Source: Telmatactis stephensoni
Taxonomy: Eukaryota > Cnidaria > Anthozoa > Actiniaria > Isophelliidae
DNA length: 64,000 bases
Reading direction: 5' to 3'
Assembly (NCBI GenBank): GCA_029948255.1
Contig: JALIZF010001518.1
Coordinates: 1 to 64,000, forward strand
The position numbers and the translations under genes were made by a program. Every line of letters starts with the position of its first letter. Position 1 is the first letter of the stretch. Below, piece after piece: positions 22,601 to 29,503 of this stretch. The notes under the pieces are model-generated. The model did not search any database, had not been told where the DNA came from, and saw only the letters and a list, made by a program, of their open reading frames with translations.

Positions 22601-25600
22601 CCCAACCCCTAAGTGATCAGCCAACTGCTGCTCTTCTAAATTTTAATTAAAAGCCAATATTACTACTGCAGCACCTTAAAGTTAATAATTATGCACATCA
22701 TAATTTGTGTGTGTGTGTGTGTGTGTGAGCGTGTGTGCGTGTGTGTGTGTGTGAGAACATCTTACCCTTTGAATGGCCAGACAGCAATAGCTCCAGTCTC
22801 CACTTTTCAAAGTCACTCCATTATTGGTTGAGTGCATTGATTAATTCTTACTTCATATTGTCCTTTCTTCCTTCTAGATAAAGATGGCGTTGCCAGTAAG
22901 AAGGGTAGGTTGTACAGATAAGCTTTTCAAAGTCACTACATTATTAGTTGAGTGTATTGATTAATTCTTACTTTATATTGTCCTTACTTCCTTCTAGATA
23001 AAGATGGTGTTGCCAGTAAGAAGGGTAGGTTGTGCTCATAAGCTTTTCAAAGTCACTACATTATTAGTTGAGTGTATTTATTAATTCTTACTTCATATTG
23101 TCCTTACTTTCTTCTAGATAAAGATGGTGTTGCCAGTAAGAAGGGTAGGTTGTACAGATAAGCTTTTCAAAGTCACTACATTATTAGTTGAGTCCATTGA
23201 TTAATTCTTACTTCATATTGTCCTTACTTTCTTTTAGATAAAGATGGTGTTGCTACTAAGAAGGGTAGGTTGTACTGATAAGCTTTTCAAAGTCACTACA
23301 TTATTAGTTGAGTCCATTGATTAATTCTTACTTCATATTGTCCTTACTTTCTTCTAGATAAAGATGGTGTTGCTAGTAAGAAGGGTAGGTTGTACTGATA
23401 AGCTTTTCAAAGTCACTACATTATTAGTTGAGTCCATTGATTAATTCTTACTTCATATTGTCCTTACTTCCTTCTAGATAAAGATGGTGTTGCCAGTAAG
23501 AAGGGTAGGTTGTACAGATAAGCTTTTCAAAGTCACTACATTATTAGTTGAGTCCATTGATTAATTCTTACTTCATATTGTCCTTACTTTCTTCTAGATA
23601 AAGATGGTGTTGCCAGTAAGAAGGGTAGGTTGTACAGATAAGCTTTTCAAAGTCACTACATTATTAGTTGAGTCCATTGATTAATTCTTACTTCATATTG
23701 TCCTTACTTTCTTCTAGATAAAGATGGTGTTGCCAGTAAGAAGGGTAGGTTGTACTGATAATTAGCTTTTCAAAGTCACTACATTATTAGTTGAGTCCAT
23801 TGATTAATTCATACTTCATATTGTCCTTACTTTCTTCTAGATAAAGATGGTGATGCCAGTAAGAAGGGTAGGTTGTGCTCATAAGCTTTTCAAAATCACT
23901 CCATTATTAGTTGAGTCCATTGATTAATTCTTACTTCATATTGTCCTTACTTTCTTCTAGATAAAGATGGTGTTGCCAGTAAGAAGGGTAGGTTGTGCTC
24001 ATAAGCTTTTCAAAGTCACTCCATTATTGGTTGAGTGCATTGATTAATTCTTACTTCATATTGTCCTTACTTTCTTCTAGATAAAGATGGTGTTGCCAGT
24101 AAGAAGGGTAGGTTGTGCTCATAAGCTTTTCAAAGTCACTCCATTATTGGTTGAGTGCATTGATTAATTCTTACTTCATATTGTCCTTACTTTCTTCTAG
24201 ATAAAGATGGTGTTGCCAGTAAGAAGGGTAGGTTGTACTGATAAGCTTTTCAAAGTCACTACATTATTACTTGAGTCCATTGATTAATTCTTACTTCATA
24301 TTGTCCTTACTTTCTTCTAGATAAAGATGGTGTTGCCAGTAAGAAGGGTAGGTTGTACAGATAAGCTTTTCAAAGTCACTACATTATTAGTTGAGTCCAT
24401 TGATTAATTCTTACTTCATATTGTCCTTACTTTCTTCTAGATAAAGATGGTGTTGCCAGTAAGAAGGGTAGGTTGTACAGATAAGCTTTTCAAAGTCACT
24501 ACATTATTAGTTGAGTCCATTGATTAATTCTTACTTCATATTGTCCTTACTTTCTTCTAGATAAAGATGGTGTTGCCAGTAAGAAGGGTAGGTTGTACTG
24601 ATAATTAGCTTTTCAAAGTCACTACATTATTAGTTGAGTCCATTGATTAATTCATACTTCATATTGTCCTTACTTTCTTCTAGATAAAGATGGTGATGCC
24701 AGTAAGAAGGGTAGGTTGTGCTCATAAGCTTTTCAAAATCACTCCATTATTAGTTGAGTCCATTGATTAATTCTTACTTCATATTGTCCTTACTTTCTTC
24801 TAGATAAAGATGGTGTTGCCAGTAAGAAGGGTAGGTTGTGCTCATAAGCTTTTCAAAGTCACTCCATTATTGGTTGAGTGCATTGATTAATTCTTACTTC
24901 ATATTGTCCTTACTTTCTTCTAGATAAAGATGGTGTTGCCAGTAAGAAGGGTAGGTTGTGCTCATAAGCTTTTCAAAGTCACTCCATTATTGGTTGAGTG
25001 CATTGATTAATTCTTACTTCATATTGTCCTTACTTTCTTCTAGATAAAGATGGTGTTGCCAGTAAGAAGGGTAGGTTGTACTGATAAGCTTTTCAAAGTC
25101 ACTACATTATTACTTGAGTCCATTGATTAATTCTTACTTCATATTGTCCTTACTTTCTTCTAGATAAAGATGGTGTTGCCAGTAAGAAGGGTAGGTTGTG
25201 CTCATAAGCTTTTCAAAGTCACTACATTATTAGTTGAGTCCATTGATTAATTCCTACTTCATATTGTCCTTACTTTCTTCTAGATAAAGATGGTGTTGCC
25301 AGTAAGAAGGGTAGGTTGTGCTGATAAGCTTTTCAAAGTCACTCCATTATTGGTTGAGTGCATTGATTAATTCTTACTTCATATTGTCCTTACTTTCTTC
25401 TAGATAAAGATGGTGTTGCCAGTAAGAAGGGTAGGTTGTGCTCATAAGCTTTTCAAAGTCACTCCATTATTGGTTGAGTGCATTGATTAATTCTTACTTC
25501 ATATTGTCCTTACTTTCTTCTAGATAAAGATGGTGTTGCCAGTAAGAAGGGTAGGTTGTACAGATAAGCTTTTCAAAGTCACTACATTATTAGTTGAGTC

Positions 25601-28600: not shown

Positions 28601-29503
28601 GCTTTTCAAAGTCACTACATTATTAGTTGAGTCCATTGATTAATTCTTACTTCATATTGTCCTTACTTTCTTCTAGATAAAGATGGTGTTGCCAGTAAGA
28701 AGGGTAGGTTGTACAGATAAGCTTTTCAAAGTCACTACATTATTAGTTGAGTCCATTGATTAATTCTTACTTCATATTGTCCTTACTTTCTTCTAGATAA
28801 AGATGGTGTTGCCAGTAAGAAGGGTAGGTTGTACTCATAAGCTTTTCAAAATCACTACATTATTAGTTGAGTGCATTGATTAATTCTTACTTCATAATGT
28901 CCTTACTTCCTTCTAGATAACTACTAACGTTTACTATATTTTCAGTTTTTGTCTGGACTTTCTATGAATTTCAGAAATATTGTCTAAATATTGATCATGA
29001 CATCCTATGTAACGCACATGTCAGAGCTATCCAAGTAAATGCTGTGTCAGCTTCTAGTTAGTTCTAAACTTCCCTAGGGGACTCCTCAGGGTGATCGAGT
29101 TTGGTAATTGAAGATTATTAACAGTCTGGAGTGGTCACTTGAGTGATGTTTCTAGTTCAGATGAGTTCGTAGTGCGCACAAAAATTATATATTTCTAATT
29201 TCATACTGAAGTAAAACTTCAAATAAATGTTACATTTCTATAATTTCTATATCATTGAGAACACCTTTATGTAGTTCTCGGTGTTTTATACCTTGATAAC
29301 AACACCGTCAACAAGTGTTTCAATAATTGCAATTATTGCAGATAAGTTATTTTCGTGTTTGTCCATCTTCGACATGAAATATTAAACTGAATTTCAATGT
29401 TGGCAGTTTTTGTATAGGTAATAGCATGGTTTGTAGTGATATTTGGCATAAATACCACAAGTGATATTTCAAAATTGTTAAATTTGGGACAATTTTGAAA
29501 TAT

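Follow-up and report, generated by a model that had tools for sequence, protein, structure and literature searches.

Tandem 27-nt predicted exons form a minisatellite in a likely chromatin gene of Telmatactis stephensoni

How does a 120-bp repeat carrying a splice acceptor, a 27-nt exon and a donor come to stand some fifty times in a row, and what would a gene make of it? The question is raised by positions 1 to 64,000 (forward strand) of contig JALIZF010001518.1, assembly GCA_029948255.1, of the sea anemone Telmatactis stephensoni, a 64-kb stretch that we call the window. A first-pass annotation, made from the letters, had described tandem microexons that would encode (DKDGVASKK)50 within one gene. 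We propose that the array is a minisatellite of predicted exon-plus-intron modules inside a likely chromatin gene and that, if spliced, it would yield a long charged (DKDGVASKK)n segment between or after a SET and a C-terminal domain, a reading to which we assign a probability of roughly 0.55. It starts from two features:

22803..28920, plus strand: main array, made up of a predicted exon and intron repeated as 50 complete units of about 120 bp, with an incomplete 51st that holds the acceptor only, delimited by Tandem Repeats Finder (TRF)
22878..28823, plus strand: 50 predicted phase-1 exons of 27 nt, DKDGVASKK in 46 of 50, with introns mostly of 93 nt

The 50-copy array is real. TRF reports a period of 120 and 50.7 copies over 22803-28920, with units head to tail; a polypyrimidine tract ending in TAG lies upstream of each exon, and none of the 50 has an exon indel or a lost splice site. 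A mismatch-tolerant scan of the window finds 54 copies of the 27-nt exon, 50 at 22878-28823 and four at 35084-35474, without a minus-strand copy; each of the 54 is 27 nt long, preceded by TAG, followed by GTAGG and free of a phase-1 stop. The earlier claims of about 50 tandem units with acceptor, exon and donor, and of phase-1 exons of nine codons without frameshift or stop, hold for 50 of 50 and extend to the four further copies. Coding differences are as few as had been described: translated in phase 1, with the preceding G included, four copies depart from DKDGVASKK by one change each (S to T in copy 4, V to D in copies 9 and 16, D to H in copy 43). In the spliced model introduced below, 44 of the 52 introns separating adjacent DKDG-type exons are 93 nt long. 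As in a variable-number tandem repeat of the LPA kringle IV-2 (KIV-2) type, each repeat unit (54 of 54) holds a complete in-frame predicted exon plus intron.

If the intron is retained, translation of 49 of 50 units stops four to five codons beyond the exon, and that of the one other unit further on; a unit can therefore code only if it is spliced, and a minisatellite read as one continuous open reading frame was rejected. A minus-strand feature was discarded as well, there being no exon copies on that strand and a best minus-strand exon score within one unit of -2.8 against 9.49. The DKDG start of the peptide had raised the idea of an EF-hand, for which 12 repeat copies gave no Pfam match. 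The exact 27-mer has no match in viral_contigs or genome_contigs, which hold viruses and prokaryotes and are hence uninformative here. Judged from its sequence, the array is probably coding.

Is the exon held more constant than the intron around it? Diversity was compared across 49 interior units, unit 1 being dropped. Mean diversity comes to 0.0116 for the exon, about 4.6-fold below the 0.0538 of the intron. Counting exon and splice core together, 6 of 40 sites vary against 28 of 80 in the rest of the unit (p=0.031), and this third of the sites received 6 of 40 substitution events (p=0.008). Insertions occur in six units, never within the exon. Three amino-acid-changing or stop events are seen in the exon where 9.15 are expected (p=0.019), and still three against 12.3 when splice dinucleotides and indels are added (p=0.0018), while synonymous changes fall as predicted (2 seen, 2.3 expected). 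Expected counts were taken from rates in the rest of the intron and events were treated as independent, which is only approximate given copying between units. Taken together, the results suggest a recently amplified unit under moderate constraint.

The gene around the array was assembled as a hand-spliced model of 92 exons running from 11558 to 49003, with 1654 codons and no stop. Outside the arrays and the duplicated blocks described below, its predicted parts are as follows:

11558..14629, plus strand: predicted 5' exons (11558-11596, 12431-12512, 13409-13571, 14430-14629) with a complete KMT5A-like SET domain
15023..19743, plus strand: predicted single-copy phase-1 linker exons, chosen by eye (15023-15052, 15871-15897, 16723-16749, 18190-18249, 19711-19743)
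41413..44938, plus strand: predicted linker exons, chosen by eye (41413-41476, 43869-43921, 44675-44746, 44888-44938)
45973..48386, plus strand: C-terminal domain exons (45973-47203, 47926-48386), with homologues, covering a zinc-finger-like and a tyrosine-recombinase-like region that misses one arginine motif
48926..49003, plus strand: predicted acidic phase-1 exon 3' of the C-terminal domain, chosen by eye

No 3' end of the gene was found beyond the 48926-49003 exon. Phase 1 is the rule, for 85 of 91 introns of the model and on both sides of 80 exons. Short symmetric exons of the kind seen in micro-exon genes (MEGs) prevail, with 75 of 92 at 30 nt or less and 81 of 92 divisible by three. Unlike a MEG, whose small secreted product has its signal peptide in a long 5' exon, however, the model begins with a 39-nt exon that leads into the SET domain and has no signal peptide by eye.

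The predicted SET domain is complete and KMT5A-like: the Pfam match (E 1.8e-12) spans profile positions 1-105 of 105 over two exons, and the best 14 matches among PDB structures are all KMT5A/SETD8/SET8 or labelled H4 lysine-20 specific. SET was the only domain above cut-off in plus-strand Pfam scans of 8001-17992, 39501-49492 and 49001-63992 in three frames and of 1-11010 in one; the minus-strand scan covered three open reading frames. For the C-terminal exon (searched as 45990-47204) there are 45 homologues at E <=0.001, the best of them 54% identical; those from named species are Acropora muricata and Montipora foliosa (40-43% identity) and Molorchus minor (24%), and no relative appeared in phages or viral_contigs; taken alone, these homologues would suggest a coral-type animal. 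From its motifs we tentatively read this domain as a Crypton-type tyrosine recombinase. Recombinase profile matches are weak (Phage_integrase at E 0.044 in 1 of 27 members, XerA at E 0.07 on P0009), and a profile search of PDB with the domain returned no recombinase match.

Do the two ends belong to one protein? A search with residues 1-360 of a model shortened to 1007 residues retrieved one significant protein, an uncharacterised one of 1297 aa from Apostichopus japonicus, from 4345 candidates limited to 0.55-1.75 times the query length. It aligns with the model in its SET part (44%, E 2e-33) and in its C-terminal domain (24%, E 2e-25), in the same order, SET before C-terminal domain. Since this protein joins both domains, they are paired in one further animal at least, and the arrays here lie in the linker. 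The host is likely, on these predictions, a chromatin gene encoding a large nuclear protein.

Splice signals were compared by a simple generic score made for this analysis. The array exons have median scores of 4.97 for the acceptor and 4.52 for the donor; the non-array exons of the model, ten duplicated-block exons included, reach 1.48 (acceptor, 25 exons) and 2.87 (donor, 26 exons). Only 3 of 1000 dinucleotide shuffles of one unit reached its best symmetric-exon score.

The main array is accompanied by two others in the same predicted gene, neither of which figures in the first-pass annotation of the main array:

19980..21700, plus strand: second array, 12 units of 141-144 bp with a 30-nt phase-1 predicted exon, DEEVALGHDN (TRF)
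35042..35571, plus strand: third array, four DKDGVASKK predicted exons in the 120-bp unit of the main array, also with a terminal acceptor and DNY-stop (TRF)

The DEEVALGHDN segment is identical in 12 of 12 copies, and the 66 array exons of both types have zero stops and zero indels. In the model the DEEV block carries a net charge of -48 and the 50-copy DKDG block +49. A match of the DEEV repeat to the NUDIX-like family PF09296 (22.3 bits, cut-off 22, over 26 residues of a repetitive peptide) was taken as chance.

How did arrays of 50 and of four units come to share one unit? The stretch downstream of the main array is present twice:

28830..35032, plus strand: block A of a duplication, with predicted exons ATNG, DDVM, AQKI, VFGK and ENEF
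31989..34466, plus strand: predicted linker exons of block A, chosen by eye (31989-32015, 32145-32252, 33332-33352, 34060-34112, 34439-34466)
35481..40379, plus strand: block B, a copy of A that differs at 18 of 4827 aligned sites and lacks about 1.35 kb (29900-31252)
37314..39822, plus strand: block B versions of the five predicted exons of block A, from the model and the block alignment

The blocks differ by 0.37% substitutions, with 1 of the 18 mismatches among 237 exon sites, and 50 units precede block A where four precede block B. Both blocks end in AAAAAACTCATT, followed by array-like sequence after A and by unrelated sequence after B; at the end of block A, CTCATT runs directly into array-like GATTAATT, CATT being common with array units. 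Within the main array, units 7-12 and 14-19 differ in at most one column at a seven-unit offset, which indicates that blocks of units were copied. The stretch present in A and not in B includes a near-perfect palindrome with 97-nt arms (30964-31158). A linker exon holds 2.1 copies of an internal 30-bp repeat in exact (100%) match, at 32145-32208 and again at 37470-37533, another short-scale expansion within the same gene.

The layout of A and B would follow from a recent tandem duplication, with unit numbers then changing fast, or from the joining of two haplotypes by the assembler. An assembly effect seems to us unlikely, whether by tandem stitching of two haplotypes, which would account for the A/B duplication and with it the four-copy array, or by a consensus error in the count of 50. 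Such animals are heterozygous enough to accommodate a divergence of 18 in 4827 sites. Among the 49 units, however, there are 37 distinct sequences, which argues against assembler stutter in the 50-copy array, and the CATT overlap at the junction of block A and array fits an end-joined tandem duplication, with which stitching would still be compatible.

Against a spliced, coding array several results have to be set. By variable sites the exon (5 of 27) does not differ significantly from the intron (29 of 93; Fisher p=0.23). A 27-nt window moved stepwise round the 120-nt unit holds fewer variants than the exon at 5 of its 120 positions and an equal number at 11, one of which is the exon itself; by minor-variant cells, four positions fall below the exon. 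Neither the five of 40 substitution events that fall in the exon (binomial p=0.087) nor the absence from it of all eight variants shared by at least five units (p=0.13) is significant, and the exons of the duplicated blocks give no signal of constraint (1 of 237 against 17 of 4590 sites, p=0.60) in a test of low power. A protein search with the repeat peptide (four DEEV and 12 DKDG copies, scored on only the 7986 candidates sharing most words) gave one non-significant match, at E 1.8. The model was built by joining candidate exons by eye before the frame was checked, and the single-copy exons in its linker are predicted. In the upstream array, 9 of 12 donors are GC and the other three GT. The motif N-x-[RK]-R, which we take to be the first catalytic arginine motif of a tyrosine recombinase, is present in 41 of 43 covering homologues and missing from the copy in the window, which is compatible with decay. 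Finally, the acceptor that closes the main array leads to a stop, a point to which we return.

The idea that exons are more uniform than introns is thus borne out by mean diversity but is only partly significant, and the hint of selection on the coding part stands on the shortage of coding-altering events (3 against 12.3), although the contrast is modest by site count. This bears on a passive minisatellite, in which the 120-bp unit would have expanded neutrally within an intron, its exon mostly skipped and harmless because symmetric. The array is plainly changeable, given the block copies of units 7-12 and 14-19 and the 50 and four units ahead of blocks only 0.37% apart; many other tandem repeats are found in the window by TRF, and by site count the signal of selection is weak. 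Yet there is no disabling event in 54 copies, coding-altering events fall below expectation (p=0.0018), and array splice scores exceed those of the model's non-array exons. We regard passive expansion as rather unlikely.

The missing arginine motif and the GC donors also bring up a decaying gene copy, a recent pseudogene whose arrays and duplication would be rearrangement debris; the stop beyond the terminal acceptor and the recent A/B duplication could be counted toward it too. A hand-spliced model of 1654 codons without a stop and 66 array exons without stop or indel speak against this, and we consider it quite improbable. The GC donors of the upstream array (19999-21585) seem to follow a 4-unit copying pattern, and possibly a weakened donor was itself amplified there.

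What happens where the array ends is the strongest caution on the coding reading:

28903..28928, plus strand: 51st acceptor, with AG at 28915-28916 followed by D-N-Y-stop; AATAAA at 29222

If the 49 internal introns are spliced by virtue of their sequence, the fiftieth is expected to be spliced likewise, its donor and acceptor being of the same type as those of the other introns. The 51st acceptor scores 4.4, the next model acceptor, that of the ATNG exon 3.1 kb downstream, 3.4. Use of the former would bring a stop after three codons (DNY-stop), and full inclusion of the array may thus truncate the protein. The four-copy array ends in the same arrangement of terminal acceptor and DNY-stop. A truncated product is therefore a serious possibility, if a tentative one: the array would be spliced and its 51st acceptor used, and the product would be a SET protein that has a long charged tail but lacks the C-terminal domain, or else the transcript would be degraded. 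An AATAAA lies 305 nt past that acceptor; with 1.25 such hexamers per kb in the window, however, a nearby one is unremarkable. The Apostichopus japonicus protein, in which SET is joined to the C-terminal domain, and the C-terminal exons here, which are still open, count against truncation. The proposal that repeat length depends on unit number and splicing accordingly keeps its basis in the intact phase-1 signals, but it may apply to a truncated product. These alternatives are not exclusive: truncation overlaps our preferred reading, an assembly effect is compatible with the others, and the odds do not sum to one.

Taking the preferred reading, a minisatellite of exon-plus-intron modules that is spliced into a charged repeat, we propose a model in which the symmetry of the exon is central. 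Gain or loss of a symmetric phase-1 exon would leave the frame unbroken, so that the 120-bp unit could undergo unequal exchange or slippage without harm while the exon was kept intact. Very short exons need recognition across the intron, and uniform 93-nt introns could be recognised in this way, allowing 27-nt exons to be included. As the donors and acceptors match one another in phase and almost in sequence, each donor could pair with any acceptor that follows, and length would shift only by steps of nine residues. By the same logic the 51st acceptor, unless bypassed, might be used, which would shorten the product to SET-(DEEV)n-(DKDG)n-DNY. More doubtfully, the locus could be a chromatin-enzyme gene in which an exon-intron minisatellite acts as a frame-proof length dial, with two adjacent arrays of opposite charge forming a disordered, charge-segregated segment, its length set by an inherited unit number and tuned by splicing nine residues at a time, and a switch between full-length and truncated forms at the terminal acceptor. 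One may speculate that the oppositely charged DEEV and DKDG blocks serve in condensation or binding.

The surroundings, with 34.6% GC over the 64 kb, hold further repeats. A stretch of about 790 bp (17175-17966) has 43-nt inverted ends, 95% complementary, with CGGTAAGGTAA-type repeats inside; on its minus strand lies a histone 3' UTR stem-loop (Rfam RF00032, E 5.8e-07), and it is possibly a mobile element with histone-derived sequence. Within a predicted intron of the host gene is a large inverted repeat (41577-43662) with arms of 126 and 512 nt, 94-95% complementary. Thirty-one nucleotides of the predicted EGDI exon (44683-44713) recur inverted in the next intron (44832-44862, 97% complementary), and the donor of that exon therefore lies within a possible hairpin. 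Tandem repeats of 22 bp from the GGTGTCAGGAAGTGGTTGGTAA family, similar to a motif near 48.4 kb, occupy 52391-52795 and 53378-53654.

Tandem-exon genes are known from several animals, the schistosome gene Ag10.3/MEG-4.1 reportedly from Davis et al. 1988, and the locus described here is an extreme variant of them, set apart by its host gene and by exons that are so many, so dense and so nearly identical. In the passages of the papers on which we draw here and below, Ag10.3/MEG-4.1 has tandemly repeated exons (PMC10526429, PMC4671649, PMC3723592). Schistosoma MEGs likewise have many short symmetric exons, some tandemly repeated, that can be dropped without loss of frame. They encode secreted, mostly small proteins from 10-20 very short exons with long introns, whereas here 50 near-identical predicted exons with 93-nt introns belong to a large, likely nuclear protein. 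The aphid megacycle gene has more than 100 microexons and apparently grew by internal tandem duplications, reaching 15 units and 118 exons over about 100 kb in M. sacchari (PMC9168663). In aphid bicycle genes nearly all internal exons share one phase, as here, theirs being phase 2 and ours phase 1 (PMC9168663). The megacycle repeats, however, are larger, differ from one another and lie in a salivary protein with a secretion signal; here they are near-identical, one per 120 bp. Human LPA KIV-2 resembles the array in being a coding repeat with exons and introns inside the unit (PMC4378929). Its unit is 5.5 kb with two exons of 160 and 182 bp, present in 1 to more than 40 copies between people (PMC4378929), whereas ours is 120 bp with a single 27-nt exon and a copy number taken from one assembly. 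Titin PEVK also has more than 100 short repetitive exons with duplication and loss; these vary in sequence, structure and length and build a muscle spring, unlike the near-identical exons of a SET-domain gene (PMC6469411). For the C-terminal domain, the closest comparison is with Crypton-derived DUF3504 genes of animals, whose tyrosine-recombinase-like domain lacks catalytic residues (PMC3212892). The passages on them mention no SET fusion, unlike the arrangement here, where the tentative recombinase identity comes from sequence motifs and weak profile matches. Among titles and the starts of abstracts, with subscription journals mostly outside the search, we found no SET-recombinase fusion and no comparable array of identical microexons beyond the named systems; a paper on a tapeworm genome (PMC7653826) does mention micro-exon genes and tandem duplication.

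Exons so short and repetitive are easily missed, which makes this a hard case for gene annotation. If transcribed, the array would be a ready-made system for the study of splicing: with 50 near-identical microexons and near-identical 93-nt introns between them, repeat length alone would report on inclusion, skipping and order. If our reading is true, a repeat segment of a protein grows here by whole exon-intron units, each step invisible to the reading frame.

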